Source: Sanderia malayensis (Eukaryota; Cnidaria; Scyphozoa; Semaeostomeae; Pelagiidae). Taken from it: a DNA stretch of 64,000 nucleotides. Each line of letters opens with the position of its first letter. The first letter of the stretch is position 1. Positions 8,360 through 60,026 of this stretch are shown here, in pieces. The position numbers and the translations under genes are program-made. The notes beneath the pieces were generated by a model. That model did not search any database. It was not told the DNA's origin and saw only the letters and a list, made by a program, of their open reading frames with translations. The DNA is taken from contig RQOL01000919.1 in the NCBI GenBank assembly GCA_013076295.1, positions 62,001 to 126,000 of the forward strand, read 5' to 3'.

Positions 8360-8697
8360 CTCGTTCAGGAATGACATAGTCGGCTGGAAGTTGAGGAAGG
8401 TGAGCACAATTAGTGATCGATTGACAAGATACTCTCCAATTTTCGTCAATGTCATGTAGACATTGATACCTGTGTCAGTCTTCAAAAGCTATGGCCATAT
8501 CTGGATGATTGACTTGATCACATCGAACAAAGTCTTCACTCAATGCCTCTTTGAACATGTTGAAGAGTGCTGCGATATCTGAAGGTGTTTGAAAAAACAG
8601 TAATGTTGCAAACAACTGTCTCAGTTGTATTGGCATGTTAAAAAAGACTGCCTCCTCCAAACAGCGTATGATTTCAGCATCATCTTCCAATAGACCT
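8360..8697 (-). pseudogene. Helitron A linker between replicase and helicase (5' part displaced by insertion)
   Basis: Encodes LLEDDAEIIRCLEEAVFFNM and onward, including a stretch matching RQLFATLLFFQTPSDI. This Helitron linker domain corresponds to 28320-28678 in Helitron B. An in-frame TGA at 8475-8477 replaces an Arg codon present in copy B. The reading frame breaks at 8697 because an element was inserted at a TA. The other half of the same codon context lies at 13231, and joining the two flanks at the TA restores the frame exactly. Confidence 0.8.
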
Positions 8698-8942
8698 ACA
8701 ATCCTTCACAAAATACATTGAGACTCGCAAAAATACAAGATAGCAGTACGTTTTTTGGCAAACGTTTGCATGAAAAATGATTCCCCAGCACTCCCTTCCC
8801 CTGACTATGCAATGTTGTCATTATTGTGGAAAGAAAACCTCATCATATCCTCAAAGAAGCTGAGAAACAACACCTAACCAACATTGATTGTTTGGGGGAG
8901 GGGAAAGACAAAGGCAGTCTCACAATTTATGTGGACGATTGT
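8698..8942 (+). repeat. Left direct terminal repeat of the Rep-bearing element
   Basis: 245 bp, begins ACAATCCTTCACAAAATAC and ends GTGGACGATTGT. It differs from the right copy by about one indel in a C run (8810 region) and one C/T change. Its outer end abuts the TA target site; its inner end continues into CTGAAATTTGG. Confidence 0.9.
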
Positions 8943-9577
8943 CTGAAATTTGGAAAAACATTTGAAAAGGGTATGTAGCATTTGCAGTCTTGCAATTTCA
9001 CATTACTTGTTGTAAAAAAAAAGCATTGCATGGGTGACACGTTTTTGGGGTAATGAGAAAGCAACTTCCAAAAAGGCAATGACAAAAAGGGTAGCTGGGG
9101 TAAATGAGAAAAAGGGTACCTATTTCACACAAGATTTAGTTTTTCACCGAAAATGAATATGTTTCTAAAGAAACAACATGATTCATCAGTTTTTACGTTA
9201 GGCCAAACGCGTAAACAAAGGTTTTCTAGTGTCTTCAGTCATGTTTATTTCGACATTTTGACCGAGTATACTTGCAGTTGGGACAATAGCTAATTTCACA
9301 ATTTTACGCATACAATAATTGTACTTACCAAACGATATGACAACGAAGAAGACACAAGGAAAACGGAGACGTCGCTGTTGCAAAATTCAACTTCTGAAGT
9401 ATTGCCTGGAATTGGATTATAAGTATCATGTGGCTATTGATACCCCACAGATTTGCAGGAAGTAATGGGAGTGTTGTGAGATTTTATATCACATATCACT
9501 GGTGAATGAGTTGGCTGCAAATTGGCGCGTTCTATTCATTTTTTCAAATCAACAATAAGCACACGTTCTATTTGATA
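8943..9577. other. Leader between left repeat and Rep start
   Basis: Non-coding. It contains a repeated motif of the type GGGGTAATGAGAAA / GGGGTAAATGAGAAA followed by AAAGGGTA (9048-9120), which may be short iterons. A minus-strand reading frame at 9198-9383 shows no recognisable protein. Confidence 0.4.
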
Positions 9578-10853
9578 ATGTCTGAATCTGATTTGCAAAC
9601 GTCTCGTAGTGGAAAGAGGCAGTACCTGGTGACCTATTCCCAGGCTGATTACCACAAATTTGCAACAAGGGAAAGTTTCGGTATGATGTTGGAAAAGGAG
9701 TTTAATAGTGGGAACAGCAAAGTAAAAGTGTCCCATTGGGCCTGTTGTAAAGAGATGCACGAAGCTGGTGGGTTTCACTATCACTGCTGTTTGAAGCTGA
9801 CAGGGGTGAAAAAGTGGTTGAGTGTCAAGAGAGACATCACGAAGAATCACAACATTGTTGTCAATTTTTCTGACAGTCACAGTCATTACATCTATGCGTA
9901 TCGATATGTGTGCAAGTCAGATACAGAAGTTGCACACAGTCCAGGTCATCCCGATTTGTCTGAAGTGGGATCTCCACGCACAAAAGCTTCCACCGCTGCG
10001 CTTCGTGAAGGCAGCAGAAAGCGCAGATCTGCATCACCAAATTCGCAGAAATGCACAAGCAGCAAAATCAAGAGGCGCCTTAGCAATCTTGAAGTTTGTG
10101 ATTATGTTGTCGAAAACAACATTCACAATCTACAGGAGCTATTTGCAAAAGCAGATTCGCGTAAGCAAGAAGGTGAATGCGATTTGGCGATTTTCTTGTT
10201 TTCCCGTGCTCAGAAAACATTAGATGAGCTTATCAGCAAGTCTTGGCTTTTAAAGACTGCATCAAGTGGTTTAGCTCTCCGCCAAGTTAGCAGAATTATA
10301 AGGTGCGAGATGCTGCAAAAATGGCTGCTTTCATGAATGTCATGGGAGCTGGATGGAGTGCGCCCTGGAGGTTTTAACCTTGAATGGAATAGATCCAGCT
10401 GTGTTTGCCAAATACATTCGCGATCTTTTGGTATTGGGGAGAGGAAAATTCCGTAACCTCATGATATATGGCCGGTCAAATTGCGCCAAAACATTCATGT
10501 TGAAGCCCCTAAAGAATATATTTGGAGAAGGCCTTTTTGACAACCCAGCAAATGACAAATATGCCTGGGTGGGTGCTGACAAAGCAGAGGTGATATTGTT
10601 GCAAGACTTCCGATTCAGCAAGGAGGTCATTACGTGGAAAGACTTGCTACTGCTTCTTGAAGGTGAGACAGTGAAGCTGCCAGCTCCAAAGAATCACTTC
10701 ACATCAGATGTAGTCATTCAGTCTGATGTCCCTATATTCGCAACAGGAAAGTCTCCCATTGTTTACCGAGGACCCTTCAATGCGGAAGACGAGCGTGAAA
10801 CAGACATGATGAACAGTCGGTGGAGGTTGGTGGCATTTCAAGCATGTTTTTGA
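9578..10853 (+). pseudogene. Rep protein, HUH endonuclease plus SF3 helicase (CRESS-like), frameshifted
   Basis: Paralogue of the intact Rep at 52412. The start at 9578 is chosen because MSESDLQ precedes motif I; an upstream in-frame extension has no support. Seen in order: motif I YLVTYSQA, motif II GFHYHCCLKL (HUH pair His-Tyr-His), motif III YAYRYVCK with the catalytic Tyr, then after a variable linker the SF3 helicase with Walker A GRSNCAKT, Walker B EVILLQDF and motif C VPIFATGK. The reading frame breaks twice. The first frame ends at 10336, a short stretch around 10297-10352 is in a second frame, and the helicase from 10353 to 10853 is in a third. The Walker A glycine before Lys is Ala here. 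Such Reps nick and join DNA for rolling-circle replication of small circular genomes; this copy should be inactive. Confidence 0.8.
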
Positions 10854-10998
10854 GGAGGAAAATCAGAAAAGAATAGCACCATGTGGTGCTTGTTTTGCAA
10901 AACTTGTTCTGTCATAAGAAAACTGACTTTAAAACATTATGGGACTGAAAGTTTGCAGAATGTAATGTTCTGCATTTAATGTTTCTTGCATTGTCTCC

Positions 10999-11233
10999 AA
11001 CGCGTTACCAACGTGTTACGACGAGTTACCATACGAGTTACCATTTTCTATATAGGCTTCACACCAGAGATTGACGTGTTACCACGAGTTACCATCGTTT
11101 TTAAAAGAACTTATCTCTTCCTTATTTTTATGGACTCTGTGGTAACTCGTGGTAACACGTCAACCACGGTCTGAAGCCTATATAGATAATGGTAACTCGT
11201 ATGGTAACTCGTCGGTAACACGTCGGTAACACG
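10999..11233. repeat. Foldback with iteron-like GTTACC repeats, 145 bp past the Rep gene
   Basis: Two arms of about 95 bp are inverted copies (roughly 90% by eye) around a loop of about 45 bp that contains TTTTTAAAAGAACTTATC. Each arm carries tandem units of 11-12 bp built on GTTACC/GTTACG with ACG or ACGAG spacers, plus CTATATAGGCTTCA. It could be an independent foldback MITE. Its position right after rep and its tandem binding-site look also fit a replication origin or Rep-binding region. No CRESS nonanucleotide of the TAGTATTAC type was found. Confidence 0.7.
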
Positions 11234-11317
11234 CAGGAATAAAGAAAATATGCCTCACCTATAAATTATTCATCGTCATGACACCTTAATACTTAATTCG
11301 CTGGCCTTTTGCCTTCT

Positions 11318-12392
11318 TTACCATATCAATACGTTTATCCATAGATGCAATTGTTTTATCAATAATTTCGGGGAATAACTCAGTAGTGTCTGTTTAGCTC
11401 TTTCACAAAATTGCGAGTACGTCTCGTGCGTTATTCTGTTGCTAAATGCATCTTCTCGCAGTTTTGACTTAACGTTGTGGAAAACATTTTCGATCGGATT
11501 GAGGTCAGGACTGCGAGCTGGGATCGTAAACTTTCTTGCCCCGACATCACACATGGCTTGTTGTGCCTTTCGGCTGTTCTGGGAAGGGTCACCATCTTGC
11601 AAGAAAAGTTTGCCTTTTACGTTGCAGCTACGCTCAAAAAGTGAAGGGAACTGTTCTCTAATAAAGTCAGCAACTTTTGCCATTCAACTGCCCTTCGTAT
11701 TGTTCAGCTAAAACCACACCCCTTTTATAGGCAATTGCAACTAAAAAATTTGCCGTTCTACCACCACTCCCTGCGTGGGAACCCTTTGCAGTTTGATTGT
11801 AACTGAGACCATCGGAAGGTTTACGCCACGACATTGTTCTTGGTGCCAAAGACTGATCGTGGGGATTTACTTTGTGCGTAAAACCAACTCCATCTAAATA
11901 GAACGCTACATGATCCGTCCAAACGGACGGTGTCAATGACCTGCGAACCTTTTTAGCAAATTCATATCTAACTTTGAGATCTTTTCGACTCAAAACTCCC
12001 TTCTTCCTTGAATGGGAATACTTAAATCCAGCTTTTCTCAACACGCGCCTCACTGTTTCATCCGAAATATTTGGTGACACACCAGCAAACACTTTCAGTC
12101 TCTTTGTTGTGAAATACCCATAGTCTCTTCGCAAAATTTCAACCTGTCGCAGAATATTACGTTTGTCTCGAACAGTAAGTTTCGGGGGGCGACCTTTGTT
12201 ATTTTTTCTTTTGTCAACAGTTGTGTCCTCGATTGGTCGTTTCATATGTCTACAAATTGTTGCTTTGGAATATTTTCCATATTTTTTGACACCTGAAATT
12301 TCCCTCCATGTTTTATTTTGATCTTGGTGAAGATAGCGCCAGTGAATTGAAACAGCCAGTGGAACTCGGTTAAGTTTGCACTTGGGCTTCAT
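11318..12392 (-). pseudogene. Tc1/mariner-like transposase with one frameshift
   Basis: The minus-strand reading frame starts with MKPKCKLNRV at 12392. It has an N-terminal helix-turn-helix region with KNNKGRPPKLTVRDKRNI (the GRP linker typical of Tc1 transposases) and the first catalytic Asp in VAFYLDGVGF. The frame shifts by one near 11680 (around GQLNG / AKVADF). It then continues with LFLQDGDPSQNS (second Asp) and SPDLNPIENVFH (final acidic residue). It encodes a DDE cut-and-paste enzyme that would duplicate TA on insertion, matching the TA flanks of the larger element. No TIRs of its own were found on either side, so it may be a passenger or the element's own transposase. Confidence 0.8.
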
Positions 12393-12986
12393 GTTCCTAT
12401 GTACGATTCTGTAACATTTAAGAAAGCCCTATACTAATAATATGTTCACACTTGTTGCTAAGTGCAATATGCACATTAAGGAAGTAGCAAACCGTTCAAT
12501 TGATTATCTAAAATTCAGGTGCATAATTGAGGTCCTGAAAGCATGTGTTTTTTCTCTTGTTTCTCAAGGTCAATGACAAAAGATAATACAAAAATATTGG
12601 AAACCACAGGGATTGGTAAGTAACTCTTATATTGGGCTTCACTATGTGTTTTGATAAAAATTGTAGACGCCACAGTAATTGATTTGTATATGCCATTCCA
12701 ACTAAGCAGTATGAAAGTAATTTCAGTTCCTCGTTCCCAAGGATTAGTCACCATTGAGCAACTTTTAAGCTTTGGTGCATGCAACAAAATCTTCACATTC
12801 CGCTTATACCCCAAAATTCCCCCCCAAAACGTCCCAGGACTCCCTATAAACAATTAAATTTCAATATTCCGAACTATAACATCAGTTAGTCACTCTGTAA
12901 TACTATCCCATTGACAAGGCATGACTAAAATGGCAAATAACGAGGATGCAACTTGAAAAAAATTCTAAGTGTAAAAAATTTGTGGG
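12393..12986. other. Non-coding interior of the Rep-bearing element
   Basis: AT-rich, with no coding signal I can support and no terminal repeat matching the left side of the Tc1-like gene. A C run occurs near 12814-12822. Confidence 0.4.
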
Positions 12987-13230
12987 ACAATCCTTCACAA
13001 AATACATTGAGACTCGCAAAAATACAAGATAGCAGTACGTTTTTTGGCAAACGTTTGCACGAAAAATGATTCCCCAGCACTCCCTTCCCTGACTATGCAA
13101 TGTTGTCATTATTGTGGAAAGAAAACCTCATCATATCCTCAAAGAAGCTGAGAAACAACACCTAACCAACATTGATTGTTTGGGGGAGGGGAAAGACAAA
13201 GGCAGTCTCACAATTTATGTGGACGATTGT
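12987..13230 (+). repeat. Right direct terminal repeat of the Rep-bearing element
   Basis: 244 bp, nearly identical to 8698-8942. It is preceded by TTTGTGGG on its inner side and followed by the TA target duplicate and the resumed Helitron A reading frame. Confidence 0.9.
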
Positions 13231-14093
13231 AGAGTTAAAGCTGACTCTTTGAAGGAATTGCATAGGTTTCCATCTACCGTGTGAAGATATTCAAAGGACG
13301 TGGCATCTCGTTTATGGAGAAGCAATAGTCTCAGTGCGAATCTTTGCTCACATGGTTGTGGGTGAACTTGATATATTCTACCTATAACAGGCATTGTTCT
13401 CCGCTGTCTTGCTTTCCCTGTTTTGGTGTGCTCAATGAAAACATAGTGTCCAGGAATCTCGTGATAGAGATATTGGCCTGCAGCGGGGTCTTATGCATTA
13501 AATTCAAACCAAGGCGTTAGTGTGGTTTTTTCATTGATGATTTGTAATTGTTCGACCCGGCCATTATCCTGAAAGTATACGATCTGCCGATCAGGTAGAT
13601 GAACATGCAGACGTTTGATAGTGTGACTTTTCTCGTGCATGGAAAATTGGAATATTCTGTGAACAGCTTCGTGTGGTCCAATATACCGAGCGTTGATGTA
13701 TTGGCATACTTCATCGTGCTCAATATCTTGAGGTACTTGCTGCTGCTGTCCTTCAAGAAATTCCATATGTGCCATGTCTTGTCCTTTATGAATATATTTG
13801 AAAATATATTTCACGGACTTCACAGTCCTACATATTTTGAGATTAATGTGACACTGATATTTGAGTAGAAGATGGCGATTATGTGTCACAACCCATGTAT
13901 CATCTAGAAGTCGATTTTCCAGACTGACTGGGTGACGACAGCGTCGTCTGTAGAGAGGATAACCATTCGCATTGACTTGTGTTTCGGCAGTGCGATCTTT
14001 CGGAAATCGTTTCTTGCATTTGTTATTCTCCATGCAAACACATCCGGGGTTGATATCACCGCATGGTCCATGTGTCATGTGCTTCAGTACCAA
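13231..14093 (-). pseudogene. Helitron A replicase, tyrosine-motif and post-HUH region
   Basis: Reads LKHMTHGPCG, a CxC...CKKRF finger-like stretch, LDDTWVVTHNRHLLLKYQCH, and VKYIFKYIHKG, the two-tyrosine motif used to cleave and rejoin DNA in Helitrons. It ends in the linker TVDGNLCNSFKESALTL that abuts the insertion at 13231. A TAA at 13491-13493 interrupts the frame where Helitron B has CAA (Gln); the frame is otherwise open through it. Both tyrosines are still present in this copy. Confidence 0.85.
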
Positions 14094-27380: not shown

Positions 27381-28678
27381 GTGATCTCAATAACAGTAGC
27401 TAATTATCATGTACATTGTCAGGTTGATCAACTCATATCAGCAGAGATACCGGATCCACAGGATGCAAAATATCACAGGTTGGTCCTAAAGCACATGACA
27501 TATGGACCCTGTGGAGTTTTAAATCCTCATTGTGGGTGCATGGAAAATAACAAATGCAAAAAGCACTTTTCGAAAGAACAAGTTGCTGAAACTCAAATCA
27601 ATGTCAATGGCTACCCTCTCTATAGACGGTGCTGTCTTCATTCAGTCAATGTACATGATTGCGTTTTGGATGATACCTGGGTAGTGCCACACAACAGACA
27701 CCTACTCATCAAATATCAGTGTCATATCAACGTGGAAATATGCAGCACTGTAAAAAATGTCAAGTACATTTTCAAATATATCCACAAAGGATATGATATG
27801 GCACATGTTGAAATTCTTGAAGAAAATCAACAACAAGTACCTCAAGATATTGAACACGAGGAGGTGCGCCAATACATCAACGCAAGATATATTGGACCAC
27901 ATGAATCCGTCTATCGGCTTCTGCAGTTCCCCATGCACGACAAAAGCCACATAGTCAAACGGCTTTCTGTTCATCTACCATTTGAGCAACAAGTCATCTT
28001 TCATGACAATGATGACGAAGAAAGGCTCCAAAACATAGGCAACAGAACAACACTCACAGCATGGTTTCAGCTGAACCAGCAAGATCCAGCTGCATGTCAC
28101 TACCTCTATCATGAGGTACCAGAGCACTATCTCTTCCAGGAGCGTTCAAAAACATGGACACCCAGACAATGAAGAACTATGCCAATCATTGGTAGAGTAA
28201 CTCAAGTGCAGCGTAGACCTTGCGAGCAAACATTCGCATTAAGACTTTTGCTATTGCATAAACGAGGAGCTACTTCATTTGAAGATCTTCGTACAGTGGA
28301 AGGTAATCTATTTGACTCTTTCAAAGATGCAGCATTAGCTTTAGGGCTTTTAGAAGATGATGCCAAAATCGCACGCTATTTACACGGCGCAGTCATCTTT
28401 AATATGCCAGCACAACTCAGACAGTTGTTTGCCACATTGCTACTCTTTCAAACGCCTTCAGACATAAGAACACTCCTCGACACCTTCAAAGAAGCGATGA
28501 GTGAAGATTTTGTCAGACGTGATCAAGTCGACAATCCAGACATAACCTTTCAAGACAGACACATGTATCAATGTCTACTTGATATTGACAACAATTTGAA
28601 AGTGCATGGTTTGTCAATCACCAACTACTCTCCTCAGCTACCGGCCGACTTTGTCATTCCAGAAGAAAGTGATTTACA
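27381..28678 (+). pseudogene. Helitron B replicase tyrosine-motif region and linker
   Basis: One frame with a TGA at 28170-28172 where Helitron A has CGG (Arg). It reads LKHMTYGPCG, LDDTWVVPHNRHLL, VKYIFKYIHKGYD (both tyrosines kept), RPCEQTFALRLLLLHKRGAT, LEDDAKIARYLHGAVIFNM and PADFVIPEE, ending at a GT donor at 28679. It matches 13231-14093 plus 8360-8697 of Helitron A, and so shows what that copy looked like before the 4.5-kb insertion. Confidence 0.85.
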
Positions 28679-50724: not shown

Positions 50725-51005
50725 ACAATAGGGGACAAAAGTCCATGGGACACCTGAAAATTTCACCCCATAATGCTTTGCTTCTGCACACTTTGTTCTC
50801 TGTGAGCAGAATGCGACCCCCCACTCCCCCCAAAACAATGTTGTCTTGTGCACCAGTCCTTTCTTGTCGTCGGGCCAAAAGAATTTCGGCGATATTGAAA
50901 AACACCGCCTCTACAAACAACATTGTTATGGGGGGGAGGGGGATGAAGTATGCGTGTAAAACTTGCTAAAATCCCAGGTGTCCCACGACTTTTGTCCCCT
51001 ATTGT
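50725..51005 (+). repeat. 281-bp MITE, copy 1, TIR ACAATAGGGGACAAAAGTC
   Basis: The inverted termini ACAATAGGGGACAAAAGTC(C)ATGGGACACC and GGTGTCCCACGACTTTTGTCCCCTATTGT bound a 281-bp unit with no coding capacity. A second copy in the same orientation is at 59746-60026, about 95% identical by eye. No clear target duplication was found at either copy. Confidence 0.85.
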
Positions 51006-51010
51006 CTGGT

Positions 51011-52035
51011 ATCAAATTCTTCAAACACGTCACTTATAAAGCTGGTTTTCGTGTTTTCTGGGGTTTTCAAGGGCGCTGATCTCGATGAGCATGTCAAAAA
51101 TTTTTATATCGTACGTATGACGTCATACCACGTGATTGTCCCATTTTTGGCCCATTTGGAGCTCTAAAGTGGTCGTATTGTCCGAAACGAATTGTTTTTT
51201 TTTGTGGAAACCATTTTGGGAAAAAGAACAAGGTATTGTGAATATATTGTGAAAAAACAAGTCTGAAAATGTTATAAAAGTGTCTCAAAAAAAGCATGTT
51301 CGTGAACTTGAAGTATATGTGTAAAACCTGTTAAAATCCTGGGTGTCCCATGACTTTTGTCCCCTATCAAATTCTTGAAATACATTACTTATAAAGCTGG
51401 TTTTCGTGTTTTCTGAGGTTTTCAAGGGCACTGATCTCGATGAGCATGTCAAAAATTTTCTATATATTACGCATGACGTCAAACTAAGTGATTGCCCCCT
51501 TTTTTGCCCAAATGGCGCTATAAAGTGGTCGTGTTGTGCGAAACGAATTGTTTTTTTGTGGAAACCGTTTTGGGAAAGAGAACAAGGTATTGTGAATATA
51601 TTGTGAATATATTGTGAAAAAAAGAGTCTGAAAATGTTTTAAAAGTGTCTTAAAAACGCATGTTCGTGAACTTGAAGTAAGCGTGTAAAACCTGTTAAAA
51701 TCCTGGGTGTCCCAGGACTTTTGTCCTCTATCAAATTCTTGAAATACATCACTTATAAAGCTGGTTTTCGTGTTTTCTGAGGTTTTCAAGGGCGCTGACC
51801 TCTATGAGCATGTCAAAAATTTTCTATATATTACGCATGACGTCAAACTAAGTGATTGTCCCATTTTTGGCCCAAATGGCACTCTAAAGTGGTCGTATTG
51901 TCCGATACAAATTTTTTTTTGGATGGAAACAATTTTGGCGAAGAGAACAAGGTATTGTGAACATATTTTGAAAAAAAGGAGTCTGAAAATGTTTTAAAAG
52001 TGTCTTAAAAACACATGTTCGTTAACTTGGGACAA
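51011..52035 (+). repeat. Tandem array, three units of about 355-365 bp, each ending in the MITE right-end sequence
   Basis: Units begin ATCAAATTCTT at 51011, 51366 and 51730. Each contains GGTTTTCGTGTTTTCTGGGG / GAGG and GCATGACGTCAAACTAAGTG, plus AACAAGGTATTGTGAATATA. The first two end in GGTGTCCCA(T/G)GACTTTTGTCC(C/T)CTAT, which is the terminus of the adjacent MITE. The array stands about 380 bp upstream of the intact Rep gene. Short open frames within the units are repeat by-products. Confidence 0.85.
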
Positions 52036-52411
52036 AAAATGAAAACAATGCTACACGTGCAGCGGAGAAAAAAGTAGAGAATAGTCACATGGAAAACGAG
52101 TAAATCTTGCAAGCAAAATATTGTTTATTACCTGCATGATATAGTAATACTTGAACTATGTAATCTGATTAATTGTGGCATATCTGTCAACAGTGATTGT
52201 CCTTGAAACATGCCAGTCCTTTAAAGGTGTCTCTCAGCAAGGGGTGAAATCCTGGCAATGTCAATACCATAAGAAAACAATAGTAAAACAGCAGAAAATT
52301 TCAAATTCAAAATTATTGCGCATAACATGACCACTACAATCAATTACTGTTATCATTTTCACAACTGCATACTCACTAGCCTTTCTACATTGCTCATACA
52401 TTAGTATCATA
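52036..52411. other. 5' flank of the intact Rep gene
   Basis: AT-rich, no clear TATA box assigned. Initiation at ATG 52412 is supported by the match of the following residues to motif I of the other Rep. Confidence 0.4.
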
Positions 52412-53620
52412 ATGGCATCATCTTTAAATATTGACAATGTTAGAAGGGCTTACCTAATAACTTATAGCCAGGCAGTTAGTGAAAAATATGACAGGAGGTC
52501 ATTTTCTGAAACAGTTGTGGCCGCATTCCATGCAGTCACTACAGCCATGATATTACAGTGGGCTTGCTGCATGGAAAGTCATCAGGATGGTGGTGTCCAT
52601 TTCCACATGTGTGTCCTGCTGGACAAAATTCAGCGCTGGTCGAAAGTAAAGAAGCACCTACAAGAGACAAAGGACATTGTCGTACACTTCTCAGGACATC
52701 CTGGCTATCGCACAGCATATGAATATGTCACAAAGCTAGATAGCCAAGTTTTGAGAAGTGAAGGTCATCCTACCCTGAAGAGCAGCAGGTTGGGTAATTT
52801 GGAAGTCTCTGATATGATAATCTCCAACGGCATTGACTCCAAGTTACACTTCCTGGCACTGGCCAAGAAGAAGAAAACAGATGGTGACAGCAGGCTGTAT
52901 GAGTTTGTCTTAAAGAAAAGCGAGAAACGAATCAGTGAACTTGTGCAGTCTGTCTGGGCAATGGAAACAGCACAGCAAACGTTGGAGAGACGTTTAATGT
53001 CAAGAATTGACCTCTTGAAGATGGCCTACAATGACAAGTGTGTCTGTCAAGGTGAGTGGTTGGTTTGTGCAAAGGAAATTCTAAAAAACAACAGCATCCA
53101 GCGAAGCACATTTGCTGATGCTGTTGTTAAATTACTCGCCATGGGTCGAGGAAAAGGTTGGAATTTATATATTACTGGCCCAGTGAACTGCGGCAAAACA
53201 TTTATTCTTGACCCCCTAAGAGTGATTTACAACACTTTTGTCTCACCTGCGACATGTTTGTATGCGTGGCTAGGGGTTGAAGAGAAAGAGGTCATTTTCT
53301 TGAATGACTTTCGTTATATGCCAGCCATTTTTCCTTGGAGTGACATACTTTTATTACTAGAAGGCCATCTTGTTCATTTTGCTGCGCCTAAAACCAGTTA
53401 CGCCAAGGATATCGAGTTCTCCAACGACACTCCAGTATTTGCAACATCAAAATCTCGCATCATTTTCATCAAAGGCTCCATTATTGATGGCAAGGAGACT
53501 GAAATGATGGATGTTCGTTGGAGATACTTCGCCTTTCACCATCAGTTCAAGGCCAGTGAGCAGAAGACCGTCACTTCTTGTGGTTGTTGTTTTGCCAGAC
53601 TGCTTTTGGACATGGACTAA
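52412..53620 (+). CDS. Intact CRESS-virus-like Rep: HUH endonuclease plus SF3 helicase, 402 aa
   Basis: One uninterrupted frame. Motif I AYLITYSQA (residues 13-21) is like the FLTYPxC motif of geminivirus-type Reps. Motif II is VHFHMCVLL (His63, His65) and motif III YEYVTK has candidate nicking Tyr105 and Lys108. A linker follows, then the SF3 helicase: Walker A GPVNCGKT (256-263), Walker B EVIFLNDF (293-300), motif C TPVFATSK (340-347) and an Arg-rich DVRWRYFAF. All expected motifs are present, unlike the broken paralogue at 9578. Such proteins nick a stem-loop origin and unwind DNA in rolling-circle replication. No capsid gene is adjacent. It could be a recent viral-type integration, a Rep-bearing mobile element, or a retained host copy; lack of lesions favours recent origin or selection. 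Confidence 0.9.
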   Translation: MASSLNIDNVRRAYLITYSQAVSEKYDRRSFSETVVAAFHAVTTAMILQWACCMESHQDGGVHFHMCVLLDKIQRWSKVKKHLQETKDIVVHFSGHPGYRTAYEYVTKLDSQVLRSEGHPTLKSSRLGNLEVSDMIISNGIDSKLHFLALAKKKKTDGDSRLYEFVLKKSEKRISELVQSVWAMETAQQTLERRLMSRIDLLKMAYNDKCVCQGEWLVCAKEILKNNSIQRSTFADAVVKLLAMGRGKGWNLYITGPVNCGKTFILDPLRVIYNTFVSPATCLYAWLGVEEKEVIFLNDFRYMPAIFPWSDILLLLEGHLVHFAAPKTSYAKDIEFSNDTPVFATSKSRIIFIKGSIIDGKETEMMDVRWRYFAFHHQFKASEQKTVTSCGCCFARLLLDMD

Positions 53621-53667
53621 ACTGAAAGAAATGAACAATAGACAGCCTCGCGAGCACGCATAAATAT

Positions 53668-53689
53668 CGGTTAGACATAAGTTTAACCG
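53668..53689 (+). other. Small inverted repeat CGGTTA/TAACCG
   Basis: 6-bp stem with a 10-nt loop, 48 bp past the Rep stop, followed by GTAGTTAAT which shares CCGTAGTT with the larger hairpin at 53932. Confidence 0.35.
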
Positions 53690-53931
53690 TAGTTAATACC
53701 AACGAAGCACAGTTCGCATTGCTAGGTCGGAGCCCTAGTACTTCCGTCATACGATATCCAATTTCTCTCGCTACTCGATCGTGCTAGATCCGTTGAACAT
53801 GATTGATAAAGATAGATCACACAGTATTTTGTTCGCCGAAGTTAATGTTCCCCACCCATATCCCTCCCTTTGTCAAATCTGTTTTGTCTTTTTCTTCTCC
53901 TTTCCCTGTCTTTTCTTTCACTCTCCTCTCC

Positions 53932-53951
53932 CCGTAGTTTGTTAACTACGG
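53932..53951 (+). promoter_or_regulatory. Perfect hairpin CCGTAGTT-TGTT-AACTACGG downstream of Rep
   Basis: 8-bp perfect stem and 4-nt loop, about 310 bp past the Rep stop, with another CCGTAGTT half-site at 53687-53694. It could be an origin-like stem-loop recognised by Rep, but the loop is shorter than the usual nonanucleotide loop, so this is speculative. A 43-bp spaced duplication TGAGACAGGTGAGTATTA follows at 54053 and 54097. Confidence 0.35.
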
Positions 53952-55190
53952 TGACAGGTGCGTTGGCCGGAAAATTGTTTCCTGGGCAATCACCGTCCAT
54001 AAGGTGTGTTTTGCTCAGGCAGTTGAAGGGCTAATGCACTTACGCCCACTTCCTGAGACAGGTGAGTATTAAATATCAGTAAGTCATTTGTTTACCCTGA
54101 GACAGGTGAGTATTAATTATTGTTGTTATAATTGTATTATTTTGCTGCATTACCTTTTGTTCTAATCAGTGTCCCGCTATGTATTGTATTGGTGTCTTCG
54201 CAAGCTGGGGCAGTTTACACAACAGTTTACACTAGGAAAAGACAAATATTTCCATTCACATCTCGTAATAATTTTTGGAAATATGTATAAAAGATGTACA
54301 CAATTTATGTACATCTTTTGAAATAATAAGTGAACATACGACCTTTTGAATTGCTGAGAAATATTCAAATAACCTCCACGGTTTACACTTCCAAGAGATT
54401 AAAAGACAAGTCATGTGACTTTCTATTCAACAATTTTGTGAACTGTCCAATCTTTCCTTCATATCTCTGTGAAAGTGTTGAAAAGAAATAAATGAAAATG
54501 TGTAGATTATGTACATTAGTGATGTACATCTTTTAAGAACATCTTCATTCCTCTCTGTGAAGGAGAACACCCTGTTTTTAATTATTATGTATTGTAAATT
54601 GTAGTGTAAATCGTAGGGATGCATACTATTTGCCATGAGCCTGACTTCCTGGTATGACCCCTTGCACCACGTGTATGCAATTCCTGGATGTGTCATTTGC
54701 AGAATACAAGTCCATTGTATTCAAAATGTTGGTAGAAGCTAGAGAGTGAAAACAAACAATATTTTTCGCAATGTCGATTCAATAAAATTAGAAAAATACC
54801 TGCCATTCATGGTGTGTCACGAGTAGGAAAAATGGCTTCAAGAGCGCTTAGCTTTAGAGCAAAACAACATAAATGAACGACATGTTTATAACTCAACTCG
54901 CAAGATTACCTCGACCAAAACTAATCATTTTTTAACTCCTCTTCTAAAAGTCATTGTTAATTAAAGTGTCCAGTTCTCATGGGGCCACATTCAATAAGTT
55001 CTTGTTAATCAAATAAAACACAATAAAATGCAAAAAACAAACGCGAGAACAAACAACACAATACACATGACTGAACATTAAGTGTGACACCTCCGTTCTT
55101 CAAGAGACATCTTTGATTTCTTTCAGCATTTAACTTATGTTCAACATGTAAGTCTGTCTGAGTGTTCTATCACTCTCCAATCTCTTACTG
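53952..55190. other. No supported gene
   Basis: AT-rich. Contains two repeats of ATTATGTACAT(T)...ATGTACATCTTTT around 54295-54325 and 54505-54535. The short frames 54177-54368 and 54427-54696 lack motifs. Confidence 0.4.
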
Positions 55191-55197
55191 TATGTCT

Positions 55198-56156
55198 CTA
55201 TATCACCCTGCTCAAAAAGTCTGCTCCAACATTCTCTGATCCTCTGATCGACTCAATCCTGAATTTGTAGTTCTGAATAAACATTGCCCATCTCATAATT
55301 CTGTCATTAACGAACTTAGTCCTGTTCAGGTAAACTAATGGCTGATGATCTGTCTGTATGATGAACTCCGTTCCATAAAGGTAAAGCATAAAGTTCTTTA
55401 TTGCCCATACCATGGCAAAACACTCTTTTTCGATTGTCGAGTAAGCTACTTCTCTCTGTAATAACTTCTTGCTTGCATAACTAACTGGGAACAGTTGACC
55501 CTCATGATCTTGTAGTAACACCGCACCGATTCCTGTATTTGATGCATCAGTTCTCAACACAAATGGCTTTGAAATATCAGGTAAGCGAAGAACTGGTTTT
55601 GTCACAGTCATCTTCTTTAGTGTCTTGTATGCTTTCTCGTGTGCGTCAGTCCACTCGACCACATTTGGCAAACCTTTCTTTGTCAAATCAGATAACGGTG
55701 ATGCGATTGCTGCGTAGTTAGGGATGAAGTTCCTGTAGTATCCCGTAAGTCCAAGGAAGGACTTCACCTCCTTCTTTGTTCTAGGCCTTGGTGCATCTCT
55801 AACTTTCTTAACATTCTCTTCATGTAAACCGAGTTCACACCTCCCAATCTGATGTCCAATAAAGTCAATTGCTTCGCCTCCAAAGACACATTTTGAAGGT
55901 CTTGCAGTAATCCTCCATTTCAACATACGACTGAACAACTCTCTCAATGCTTGCACATGTTCCTCCCATGTTCTCGTATGAATCACAATGTCATCTATGT
56001 AGCTATCTACGTTGTCTAAACCTGCAAGTAATTTCCTCATTGCTCTTACTAGTGTTGCAGCTGAATTCACCATCCCGAAAGGCATCTTTAAGAATTCATA
56101 TGATCCGTCTGGAGTCAATAGATGATATACTCCTCCACCAATGGATGATATGCATG
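55198..56156 (-). pseudogene. Gypsy reverse transcriptase / RNase H fragment
   Basis: The minus-strand frame holds the C-terminal part of a Ty3/Gypsy reverse transcriptase: FLKMPFGMVNSAATLVRAMR, the catalytic YIDDIV, GHQIGRCELG, KEVKSFLGLTGYYRNFIPNY, then RNase H with FVLRTDASNTGIGAVLLQD, STIEKECFAMVWAIKNF, QTDHQPL and GADFLSRV. The N-terminal palm (motif with the first Asp) is missing because another transposon abuts at 56157. There is no gag, protease or integrase. It is unrelated in position to the LTR element at 44-48 kb, which lacks exactly this part. Confidence 0.88.
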
Positions 56157-56530
56157 TTGACGTCACAGTCCATTCGCCACCATGCTGAGTGGTAAAATGA
56201 GTGGTAAGATGGCGGCCACGAAGTAGCCTCTAAATAGGCCCCTTCAAAAATTACATAATAGACAAGGATCCCAGGTCAGATTTGCAAAAAAAATTTGTCA
56301 CTTGAGGTCAAAATAGTAGTTTTCTGTAATGAAATCAGATTTTTATCTGATAGACTTTCTCTCTTATAAAAAATTTGACCGAAAAACAGTCTGTCGGCCA
56401 AGGCTTGCGGCTTTTTAGAAAAAGAGTTAGGCCGAAGTACACAAATCCCTGTCATTGACAAGAAAGGCTGATGATGAACAAAAAAGGGCGCGCAAAACAA
56501 ATTTTGATTTTGCAGCGATATTTTTTCAAA

Positions 56531-57846
56531 ATGGTTAAGTTTCGTTCTGTTCTTGGTTGCACGAAAAATGGATTTAAGAATGAGGTCAAATTTCATCGAA
56601 TTCCCAAAGACCCTGAACGGAGGGAAAGATGGATTTTTATTGCCAAAATAAACCCAGATAGCAATATTGACCATGCTTGGGTTTGCGGAATTCACTTTGT
56701 CTCAGGTAGGCCATAACATATTTGTATTTATTCACCATTTTTTCCCTATGGATTGCTCTGATTGGGATGTGAGATTATAATTATCTGTTTTACACGTTTA
56801 TAACTAAATAGATACATATGTCTCCTTAATGTTTAGGTCAGAAAAGTGAGAACATAGTCAGAACTTAAAGGAAGACAACATATTGTATTGAGGTCAGGAG
56901 GTTTTCCAACTGAGGACTGATTTGGCATTGCTATCTTTTGAGCAATTACTCTGGAACATGACAATAATAAGCTCCTTATGAAAATTCTTGGTTTCATCGA
57001 ACCTTTCATGCATTCCCATCACAACAGAAAGCTCTCTAATTTTCAAGAACTTCTTCTTGCACTAATCTGGTTACATCTTGATTTATCAGAGCGATACTTG
57101 GCTTATCGTTTTGGAATTCACTAAAGTAGTGTTTGCAGAATTTTCTATAAGTGGATTGTTGTTTTGTTAAAATGTCTATACTGCCCTTATTCTTTGGCCT
57201 GAAAGGGAAGTTCGTCACAAGACCATGCCTACAGCATCCAGAGAGCATTTTTCAAAGTGTGCTGTGATCATTGATTAACATTATCTAATGCACAAATCTA
57301 CACTGAACTGAGGACCAAATTTCCAAAGCATGGGTGTCTTTTGGACCTCTTGCTCCAAGAGACCCATGCTTGCAAATGATAGCATGAAATGCCAATATAT
57401 TAAAAATCATTATTTTTATCTATCTCAGGCACTTGAATATTTTGAATGTTTTATTCATTCTGGTTTTTTGCTTTGAATTTTTTTGAGTTCCATAAATGCA
57501 AAACTCCTGTTAAAAACTTAACAATGCCTTGCTGCCATACTATATGACTCGAATTTATTTTCGCTGAAATCAAAATTTTCAAATATTATACACTTGGGAT
57601 GGCTTTCTAAATTTTCATGATTAATAAATGCAATATTCTACGATTATAAATGCAATATTCCACGTGCGAATCCTTGTGGAAAGAGTAATTGGACTGCTTG
57701 GAAATAAATTTACAATATTGCAGAGCATCATCCCCATCAAGTTGCTGATGAGCAAAACTACAGAAGAAGATAGCATTCTTGATGATATCTTGGTTGTATG
57801 TTCAGCTCTTTGCAACCTCTGTGAGTCTGTTGTTCCTCTGGAATGA
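56531..57846 (+). pseudogene. THAP transposase remnant
   Basis: MVKFRSVLGCTKN...FHRIPKDPERRERWI...HAWVCGIHFVSG is a THAP finger in a first exon ending at a GT near 56705, but the first zinc Cys is not seen. After a degraded middle, the end of a DDE transposase appears at 57661-57846 (VRILVERVIGLLGNKF with the Glu, then ILDDILVVCSALCNLCESVV). This corresponds to RIHVERAISRIK in the intact element. The catalytic Asp residues are not recognisable. Confidence 0.65.
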
Positions 57847-57954
57847 AACAGCAGCACTGAATTTGTCACCCTTTAAATAGCTTTTTTCAAAGCTACCCAA
57901 TAGACCAATGTGTAACCCCTTGTGTTGTCAAACAGAGTTTATGTATATGTATAT

Positions 57955-58568
57955 CTAGTGGGGCGAGTTGAGTTGACCCCACCAAGAACAAAGTTCTGAA
58001 GTACAAGAAGATGTAGACTTTTCTTTGAACTCAGAAACACTATAAATATAAAAAAAAATTGCCGCAACATGAGAGCAGACTTCCCCTTGTCCGACCAAAC
58101 AAGTATAATGTCCCCTACATACAGATCCATCATCATTAGCGACGACCCAAGCTTGATTAGGCAACTTTTGTGAAAATACTGCGAGTTTCGTACTTTGCCA
58201 AAAAAAAGATACAAGGGGGGCTGGATTCGCTTACAAATTTCCTCATAGGTTTGGCAAGTGACAACATACGGATATGCATTCATACTTTAATAAGCTTTCA
58301 AACTTGAATGGGTAAAATTGCTTGTTGAAGTAACCAGATAATTGTAAACGGCTGCGTAAGAAAATTTGGGCCATTGCTCCAGAGGAGTATCAAAATCAGA
58401 CTTTTTCAATAAATATGGGTCTGATATCTGTAAAAACTGCAACTTCTGGTCGTAAACTAATTTTAGCTCAGAGGTGAGACCAGAGTAATGTACAGAAGGC
58501 GAGTGACAAGCTCCAAAAGGGGCGCTCTCCTTCGGCGCCTTTTTTGCGGCCGCCATTTTGCCACTCAT
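57955..58568 (-). pseudogene. SWIM-domain gene remnant (YqaJ partner)
   Basis: Starts MSGKMAAAKKAPKESAPFG inside the TIR (ATG at 58568) and continues to THSSLKAY. In a shifted frame come YPYVVTCQTYEEICKRIQPP, and then AWVVANDDGS and TCLVGQGEVCSHVAAIFFYI. This is a SWIM finger whose first Cys position reads Tyr. No YqaJ nuclease domain follows, so the 3' part is deleted. Confidence 0.65.
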
Positions 58569-58621
58569 TTTACCACTCAGTCCGAAAAGAATGAGTTCTG
58601 TGACGTCAATATACTTATCAT

Positions 58622-59269
58622 CTATACAGCCCCAGCACCATGGCAAATACCCACCACATAGTAACATACCCTTCCACTTGGCAGATCCTTGCTCCCCTTC
58701 GCAGTAATTTCCAGGCCTTCACCCGGCTTCCTCCATACACTGCCTGCTGGGGACAAAGCATCCTCGTATGGATTCGACTTATGGACGAAGGATACTGCAT
58801 CCAGGTACAGCAACACATCCTCTGTCCAAAAAGCAGGGCTGGTGTCTTTCAACGCCTTCAGGGCATATGCCGCCCTCTTCTTTTTGTCTTTCAGAGTCAG
58901 CAGGCCCTTCCTTCGAGGGCGAATATACTGATAGCCGGAGTTGGTAAAGACTCAGCACAAGGTCTTTTTACTTACCTCTGTGATTTCGCACTCCTTTGCC
59001 ACATCCATCACATGGACATTAGGATTGCTTTCTCTCATAGTTTTAAACTTGCGAAGGAAGCGATCTTTGTCCCTGCGGCTTAGAATTTCCGGCCTGCCAC
59101 TCCTTTTCTTAGGGACTTTCTCTTCCAATCCCTCCTTGCAGATCCTCTCCACGCTAGACTTTGAGATCTTACACCGTCTAGCGATCTCTCGATAGGAGAG
59201 CTTCGACTCCCGCCGAAGTGAATACACGTACGCCTTCTTTCTCTCGCTGATAACCACTTGTTTCGACAT
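58622..59269 (-). pseudogene. Tc1/mariner-like transposase, truncated, one in-frame TGA
   Basis: Single frame from MSKQVVISERKK at 59269. Helix-turn-helix SKLSYREIARRCKISKSSVE, linker KRSGRPEILSRRD, then a TGA at 58949-58951 and the catalytic start FWTEDVLLYLDAVSF (first Asp). It ends after CYYVVGICHGAGAV where the ISL2EU-like element abuts. It shares the VWTDHVAFYLDGV-type layout with the 11318-12392 transposase but is clearly a different subfamily. The second Asp and final acidic residue are missing. Confidence 0.82.
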
Positions 59270-59745
59270 TATAAAGCCTCTTCAAGCAATGAAAACCACA
59301 GAAAATAAATAAAAAATTCTCAGTATCTTCTGCGATCGGAATATTTTCGAAGAAATTTGTCGAACGTCTCTCGGGGCAACAATTTGTAACCGTCGTTCTC
59401 TAATTACGTAAATGCAAAAAAACGAGGCTAAAACAAGAGTTTTAACTTTAACAATACACTACACACTAACGAAACATGGTAGGAGCGTCGTTTTTTTTTA
59501 ACTCTACCGTACAACCATAACCTTTCAATTAATTAATTTAAATTCCACCAGTTATAAACATAACAAACCATTTTAATCACCATAAAGGCAAAAACCCCAT
59601 GAAAATATGGCCATTGTGTACCTATGACGTCACTGGTACACTGGAGGAAAAACATTTTTGCAACATCGTGATCAGCACCCCGGAAAACCCCCTAAAACCC
59701 CTAAAAAGCACCTTAATATCTATTGTACCTCGATTTTCATGCCAG
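59270..59745. other. Flank with inverted homology to the 51-kb array
   Basis: 59640-59745, reverse-complemented, resembles the start of each unit in 51011-52035 (CTGG...GGTTTTC.GGGGTGCTGATC.CGATG...CAAAAAT...GACGTCA). Otherwise no gene is seen. Confidence 0.5.
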
Positions 59746-60026
59746 ACAATAGGGGACAAAAGTCCATGGGACACCTGAAAATTTCATCCCATAATGCTGT
59801 GCTTCTGCACACTTTGTTCTCTGTGAGCAGAATGCGACCCCCCACTCCCCCCAAAACAATGTTGTCTTGTGCACCAGTCCTTTCTTCTCATCGAGCCAAA
59901 AGAATTTCGGCGATATTGAAAAACACCGCCTTTACAAACAACATTGATATGGGGGGAAGGGGGATGAAGTATGCGTGTAGAACTTGCTAAAATCCTGGGT
60001 GTCCCACGACTTTTGTCCCCTATTGT
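59746..60026 (+). repeat. 281-bp MITE, copy 2
   Basis: Same length, orientation and termini as 50725-51005, with a handful of substitutions. The right edge is CCCCTATTGT followed by ACCATC. Confidence 0.85.

Follow-up and report, generated by a model that had tools for sequence, protein, structure and literature searches.

A transposon-like element pairing a parvovirus-like Rep with a Tc1-type transposase between long direct repeats in Sanderia malayensis

The stretch of DNA analyzed here, a 64-kb window of contig RQOL01000919.1 from the 184-Mb, 918-contig assembly of Sanderia malayensis, holds at positions 8699-13229 an element that carries a Rep gene and a Tc1-like transposase gene between two long direct repeats. 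Each repeat is about 243 bp long and is called R hereafter, whereas "interior" denotes the segment between two R. The left R (8699..8941, 243 bp, forward strand) resembles a miniature inverted-repeat transposable element (MITE), with CAATC...GATTG ends and a CAATGTTG...CAACATTG core, and is 99% alike to the right R (12988..13229, 242 bp, forward strand). Outside the two repeats lie the left and right TA target-site duplications (8697..8698 and 13230..13231), whereas the inner edges are a TC after the left R (8942..8943) and a GA before the right R (12986..12987). Both duplications are called on the basis of the single TA in the empty site, which is represented by an uninterrupted relative of the insertion site, Helitron B (27842..28664, minus strand). 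When joined with one TA, the flanks of the element align to this relative with 72% identity over 841 columns, and the alignment is unbroken at the junction.

The Rep gene lies on the forward strand and is broken into two frames, an N-terminal part with the HUH endonuclease (9506..10336), whose frame stops early and whose conserved part starts at 9578, and a C-terminal part with the SF3 helicase in another frame (10353..10853). The transposase gene on the reverse strand is likewise broken, with the N-terminal part containing HTH_Tnp_Tc3_2 at 11667..12392 and the C-terminal part containing DDE_3 at 11318..11683. Since each gene is split over frames, the window copy is degenerate. Between the two genes, an iteron-rich foldback with ACGAGTTACC units on both arms (10990..11245) constitutes a candidate origin. 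The original prediction, made from the letters alone, had described 8699-13229 as an insertion between two TA, bounded by direct repeats of about 244 bp with CAATC/GATTG termini and GA...TC inner edges unlike the outer TA, and containing a HUH-SF3 Rep gene, a Tc1-like transposase gene and an iteron-rich foldback. Its boundaries proved exact to the base, the repeats turned out one or two letters shorter, the inner edges hold in the window and in most copies of the same family, and the remaining parts stood up to the analyses described below.

To characterize the two enzymes, we read three diverged families (L029, L030, and L031) besides the focal family of the window element; their proteins are 38-45% identical to the focal ones. 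The transposases of all four families contain the Pfam domains DDE_3 and HTH_Tnp_Tc3_2, the closest solved structures are Sleeping Beauty (E 2e-17), Tc3, and Mos1, and the 34 residues between D267 and E302 define a DD34E enzyme. In Rep, the conserved elements are HxH, YxxK, a Walker A with NCxKT or similar, and DFR, which we take to be the HUH-type, YxxK, and SF3 Walker motifs. At E <= 0.1, REP_ORF2-G2P matched 8 and Parvo_NS1 4 of 10 Rep members, the best Pfam match of the focal Rep being under the curated cut-off. A structure model of the database relative P0012, built from a 20-sequence alignment (mean predicted local distance difference test [pLDDT], 84.7; predicted template modeling score [pTM], 0.55), found Rep68 of adeno-associated virus 2 (AAV2) as its best PDB match (E 3e-14), followed by papillomavirus E1 helicases, and a comparison of the P0012 Rep with viral models likewise placed parvovirus NS1 and papillomavirus E1 on top. 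Ratios of nonsynonymous to synonymous change (dN/dS) were restricted to within-family pairs, dS being saturated between families, and amounted to 0.31-0.47 for the focal-family Rep (five pairs with few changes).

In the host genome, the Rep query yielded 151 matches (the best 150 of 298 candidates were scored), the transposase query 150 matches (the best 150 of 245), and the R query at least 40 places (40 scored of 67 candidates). For the pairing tally, 150 matches of each protein query were entered and then merged to 141 Rep loci. Among the matches listed, a convergent transposase lies within 4.5 kb downstream at 97 of these 141 loci, a same-strand transposase at one, and the head-to-tail spacing of Rep is mostly 3.7 to 5.8 kb. 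Other copies in the host genome encode a Rep of 470 amino acids (aa) and a transposase of 369 aa in one frame each, and the corresponding open reading frames (ORFs) of L029, L030, and L031 span 356-484 aa each. No third ORF of at least 200 aa was present in five copies scanned at this length (L018, L019, and the three diverged ones; shorter ORFs were not scanned). The idea that Rep and the Tc1 gene belong together agrees with this pairing. Likewise, a check on whether repeats and interior occur only apart, or whether Rep and Tc1 arrived apart, came out in favor of an element. The window element belongs, as a degenerate copy, to a class that is large, coherent, and partly young in the host genome. 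In a further family (C440:154605-156869 and C628:54881-57210), the transposase is located upstream of Rep on the same strand, which represents either another gene order or a circular permutation.

The units of this class are arranged as R-(interior-R)n, with n = 0, 1, 2, or 6 in the families read. The same anatomy was found in the focal and two diverged families, for which both ends were read, and in the fourth, for which one end was read, with R lengths of 240-290 bp across families. Within the focal family, C634 is an array of six interiors separated and bounded by seven R, a single interior between two R is found at C787, at C859, and in the window, and solo R are present at C824, C829:5899309, and C675. 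In other families, two R lie one unit apart at C616, C807, C762, C323, and C866:1318399, and three R do so at C859:6113307, C303:3448917, and C866:489216, the last with a Rep match in just one of its two between-R intervals. GA precedes and TC follows R in three families, while the fourth uses GT and TC. In the focal family, TC also follows the internal R copies, except for both C815 copies, which have TG after R, and one C634 copy has an altered start. Two of the searches called for by the original prediction, for solo R flanked by TA (C824 and C829:5899309) and for full elements with TA flanks elsewhere in the host genome, were thus successful.

Both outer edges were readable at 17 independent insertions, 16 of which have the same dinucleotide on both outer sides: 12 are TA/TA and four feature another duplicated dinucleotide (TG at C379 and C866:1318399, AA at C323, and CA at C866:489216), leaving one TA/TG at the solo R of C675. 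Outside this set are C381, C45, C455, C303:5907239, C815, and L029 (C456), with one or both outer edges unreadable, and the rearranged C510; C859:15953 and C859:6413134 were tallied once, as one insertion. The dinucleotide outside the element is therefore a genuine duplication of the target. That it can be something other than TA, at single-unit as well as two-unit insertions, shows the duplication to be real, even though it does not tell the routes apart. As for the insertion tallied once, C859:15953-20484 and C859:6413134-6417665 hold the same insertion and flanks in opposite orientation on one 6.7-Mb contig, either as a duplication or as an assembly artifact.

Further evidence on the mode of insertion comes from sites lacking the element or its repeats. 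The joined flanks of the C634 array are identical to C479 over 200 bases (100%), with a single TA and no R, and seven further places (89-98%) run uninterrupted across the C634 junction. While C479 could represent a duplication or the alternative haplotype of the C634 site, its being empty implies that a locus now occupied by a 26-kb array recently had neither interior nor R. Conversely, some units of the C466 and C36 arrays have no R, their junctions reading GCAGA-TCTTT or GCAGA-TG-TCTTT where neighboring units read GCAGA-R-TCTTT. By exact pattern search, eight such R-less junctions were found in the C466/C36 family (three GA-TG-TC and five GA-TC) and one in the focal family, the TG-bearing GGA-TG-TCTG in the rearranged C510. 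The cut positions given in the ISY100 paper lie two nucleotides inside the 5' end, and such a cut would leave TG. These junction sequences suggest that R is itself mobile and that GA and TC flanks, in place of TA, do not prevent its ends from being cut. Because the C634 site is identical elsewhere but empty and without R, and because R-less junctions partly bear a Tc1-type footprint, transposase-mediated pasting of R(interior-R)n is favored over recombination at a resident MITE, the route that the original prediction had proposed. The data support a transposase that attaches the ends of R to TA and mobilizes single R, R-interior-R, or longer stretches.

The R copies of one locus also tend to be siblings, which further disfavors the resident-MITE route. 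In the 279-bp family, the within-locus difference in R score averaged 1.5 compared to 12.5 after shuffling (0/20000; 11 loci chosen by an R spacing below 10 kb), where scores refer to one C616 query and are not pairwise identities. For the focal family, the average number of differing places between two R is 2.1 if they come from one locus and 6.7 if they come from different loci (0/5000 shuffles; 32 versus 346 pairs; C381_1034 and C859a omitted). Private variants are common to both R at C787, and likewise at C379. Four loci that differ in their flanks (C859:6113307, C807, C762, and C616) have nine R, all of them identical, whereas six lone R of this C616-type family are 98-99% alike (C859:204305, C655:5632427, C155:3669214, C675:4983724, and two in C25); one lone 100% copy sits at a contig end (C306). 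Finally, the six C634 units have seven columns in common that are absent from four other loci, and therefore stem from one template. Between any two of them there are 5-40 substitutions as well as numerous indels, in part perhaps due to errors in assembly.

We searched for candidate replication origins in both the foldback and R. The foldback at 10990-11245 is far stronger than expected by chance (z -17; 0 of 200 shuffles as strong), and its ACGAGTTACC iterons are the most frequent 8-mers in the focal family and in one other, not in the remaining two. In R, CAATGTTG...CAACATTG with C-rich and G-rich flanking tracts recurs in all four families (8780-8915 of the window in the focal R) while the other R sequence is divergent, and the hairpin of this R core beats shuffles in three of the four families.

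Beyond the host genome, we found 385 Rep relatives at E <= 1e-3 (120 listed) and 845 transposase relatives (120 listed), and tallied the contig sizes of 120 and 119 of them, respectively; the figures that follow apply to the matches listed. Among the matches listed, the only named relatives belong to the octocoral Paramuricea clavata. The longest contig measures 3.8-5.0 kb, about one unit, for 37 of 120 Rep and 24 of 119 transposase relatives, compared to 9 and 13 in the neighboring bin of 2.6-3.8 kb and 5 and 4 in that of 5.0-6.2 kb; 30 Rep and 27 transposase relatives reach at least 10 kb. Fifteen contig sizes are common to both lists, one of which (2193 bp) is too short for both genes. Pairing Rep and transposase records by identical size only, leaving out the 2193-bp size and using one of two pairs at 4093 bp, we found the distances of the two proteins to be correlated, with a Mantel r of 0.72 (0/10000) for 18 pairs, i.e., 14 contig pairs plus the four families, and of 0.39 (42/10000) for the 14 contig pairs alone. 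Two of three scans of viral contigs contained no relative. The third gave a 31-residue match on L052, a contig whose ORFs resemble those of a tailed phage; this match was taken as chance.

Taken together, we consider it probable that the element is a composite-like transposon with two enzymes, in which Rep would copy the element out and the Tc1-type transposase would paste R-bounded pieces into TA. In the mechanism that we propose, R is a Tc1-type end cassette with inverted termini, and the interior encodes the DD34E transposase and the HUH-SF3 Rep. The transposase would pair the outer ends of two R, and the segment moved would be a single R, one unit, or something longer. As the copy-out enzyme, Rep would start rolling-circle replication at an origin in R or in the foldback. 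With an R at either end, a one-R circle would arise by replication or recombination from one R to the other; this circle could be amplified into concatemers, whose R-bounded pieces would again be pasted into TA by the transposase. Direct repeats may then be retained because the terminally redundant form is the one that can be released and cut again. In its strict form, with a parvovirus-like Rep producing one-R circles or concatemers and a Tc1-type transposase pasting any R-to-R stretch into TA as two separate engines, this proposal is more tentative, though it may well apply. The topology of the circle in the original prediction is retained here, as the repeat unit of the arrays has the topology of a one-R circle.

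Several observations weigh against parts of this proposal. As to the enzymes, the pTM of the Rep model is 0.55 and its TM score to full-length Rep68 about 0.4, the two domains not superposing as one body, and the dN/dS of the focal-family transposase reaches 0.37-0.84 (five pairs with few changes). Among the matches listed, a transposase is missing at 43 of the 141 Rep loci, a number that is an upper bound because only the best 150 of 298 and of 245 candidates were scored. As to insertion, the four non-TA duplications depart from the rule, given in the ISY100 paper, that Tc1/mariner elements insert exclusively into TA. As to the loss of R, five of the eight R-less junctions have no footprint, the third family has none of these junctions by exact pattern search, the L034 junction is a small deletion, and the junction GTGT-AG-TCTC of L051 (fourth family, C829:6061029-6074685, with four Rep units spaced 4338-4341 bp) is unlike the TG footprint; moreover, junctions in clonal arrays need not be independent events. 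As to the sibling R, 21 of the 32 within-locus pairs of the focal family come from C634, and the two R show two differences in the window and three at C859, no fewer than each shows to the common type. As to replication, the iteron foldback is present in two of four families, the focal R core folds no better than shuffles (z -0.46, 60/200), and 8-mer counts and folding against shuffles revealed no nick site in R core or foldback of the four families. Among the relatives listed, a longest contig below 2.5 kb is as common as one of unit length or commoner (35 of 120 Rep and 45 of 119 transposase), and the unit-length peak may reflect circles or collapsed tandem arrays. No free circle or single-stranded form was seen in the assembly and database contigs examined, and the arrays could have grown after insertion.

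This last point leads to the rival that survives best, although we regard it as rather unlikely: mobility by the transposase only, in which an R-interior-R monomer is inserted and the array then grows in place by unequal crossing-over or break-induced copying, perhaps prompted by Rep nicks, with no extrachromosomal replication. Such growth accounts for outer duplications, solo R, and clonal units, has a precedent in that it was proposed for KolobokP (PMC9587614), and fits with the C634 array not being letter-identical. However, it gives no reason why a complete replication initiator with its helicase should be conserved, would have to be fast to produce six units where the counterpart site is identical over 200 bp, and predicts an excess of unit-length contigs only if arrays collapse in assembly.

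The two-enzyme reading also has to be weighed against the route of the original prediction, by which homologous recombination would insert a one-R circle at a solo R that already resides between two TA. This would automatically yield TA outside and GA/TC inside, TA-flanked solo R as it needs them exist (C824 and C829:5899309), and neither the window nor C859 has two identical R. We nevertheless consider it improbable, given that eight of eight uninterrupted C634-type sites (C479 and the seven others) have no R, as is the case for Helitron B, that R copies of one locus tend to be siblings, that the two R of C787 share private variants, as do the two R of C379, and that the nine R at C859:6113307, C807, C762, and C616 are identical where lone R are 98-99% alike. 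Even less credible are integrated genomes like those of single-stranded DNA viruses, akin to parvoviruses or circular Rep-encoding single-stranded (CRESS) DNA viruses, that carry a Tc1 transposon as a passenger. Despite the AAV Rep68- and NS1-like fold and the Parvo_NS1 matches of 4 of 10 members, which are below or near the cut-offs, precise target duplications, the convergent gene pair at 97 of 141 listed loci with co-inheritance across contigs, and the lack of a third ORF of at least 200 aa in five copies all speak against this origin. Two independent MITE insertions, which the original prediction had already ranked below one composite element, are dismissed as R-interior-R, arrays, and solo R have the same edges at many loci, a long terminal repeat (LTR) retrotransposon as the long interior ORFs are Rep and a Tc1-type transposase, and a passenger Tc1 in a Rep element as the convergent arrangement recurs at these 97 listed loci and in four diverged families.

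Having thus favored a two-enzyme transposon, we compared it with known systems. The original prediction could not place the element in a named class, which is nearly right, except that its architecture is that of KolobokP with other enzymes. KolobokP forms multimers of the type (LTDR-INT)n-LTDR, usually with target duplications, excision of its single repeats is strongly suggested, and its autonomous oyster families measure 4.0-4.7 kb (Kojima and Bao 2022, PMC9587614). In common with the described KolobokP families (PMC9587614), the present element has an interior between long direct repeats with short inverted ends of their own, solo repeats, multimers, outer duplications, and a DDE transposase accompanied by a second nuclease. 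In contrast, the transposase is of the Tc1/mariner DD34E rather than the Kolobok type, the target duplication is 2 bp and usually TA rather than 3-5 bp, the repeats span 240-290 bp rather than about 450 or 660, and the second enzyme is a HUH-SF3 Rep rather than a His-Me finger homing endonuclease, as far as that account goes (PMC9587614). Concerning the latter nuclease, Rep and transposase were the only ORFs of at least 200 aa in the five copies, smaller ORFs not having been searched. The element works like KolobokP and is not a KolobokP member.

Ordinary Tc1/mariner elements are single-gene transposons bounded by inverted repeats and are not known to have a Rep, long direct repeats, or tandem arrays as a standard form. 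The present class resembles them in transposase domains, DDE spacing, TA duplication, and, at some junctions, a putative 2-nucleotide footprint, and its lone R are MITE-like; it departs from their form by having two genes and direct repeats whose own ends are inverted. Helitrons have a Rep joined to a PIF1-type helicase. The element differs from them by its SF3-type C terminus and 2-bp duplication, Helitrons making no target duplication (PMC10741241). Replitrons are likewise eukaryotic elements of 0.9-4 kb with a HUH endonuclease and short target duplications; they are listed from green algae and land plants, their direct terminal repeats measure 5-11 bp, as against the 240-290 bp and DDE transposase found here, and a DDE transposase is not mentioned for them (PMC10741241). 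A geminivirus-like transposon of Tuber melanosporum (Liu et al. 2011, PMC3198968) also combines viral-type Rep and transposase ORFs, namely a Rep ORF and two transposase ORFs in one repeated element. It differs in its 37-bp terminal inverted repeats, its geminivirus-related Rep, and its lack of an obvious duplication, and direct terminal repeats or arrays are not mentioned for it (PMC3198968). With respect to endogenous parvoviruses or CRESS viruses, no capsid gene was apparent among ORFs of at least 200 aa in the five copies, where shorter ORFs were not scanned.

Among the titles and abstract openings listed by literature searches, none described a Rep and a Tc1-type transposase enclosed together by long direct repeats, although the element may be cataloged in Repbase or Dfam, which lay outside the scope of this search. 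What appears new is a KolobokP-like architecture with a Tc1/mariner transposase and a parvovirus-like Rep. That this architecture recurs with unrelated enzymes makes it look as if there were a reason behind the design. Here, an initiator of replication like those of single-stranded DNA viruses is linked to a cut-and-paste transposase in one heritable element, which opens to testing the question of whether extrachromosomal rolling-circle replication can multiply DNA transposons of eukaryotes. The near identity of copies at different sites points to recent activity, and circles may therefore be detectable in living material. If the strict two-engine form of the proposal is true, the element would be a natural hybrid of plasmid and transposon whose form in the genome is LTR-like and, together with KolobokP, would represent a second independent origin of a "mobile direct repeat" architecture in eukaryotes.

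The window contains a second, older element of the same class (50726..60025, forward strand), with TA...TA outside, GA...TC inside, and an interrupted interior. Its 279-bp R, located at 50726-51004 and 59747-60025, are 96.1% alike over 281 bp, and its interior matches L030 piecewise (89-96%) with extra sequence in between. Tandem units of about 365 bp adjoin the left R both at L030:506-1591 and at window 50944-52029; these units carry a 59-bp piece similar to the R end, as if R had seeded a minisatellite.

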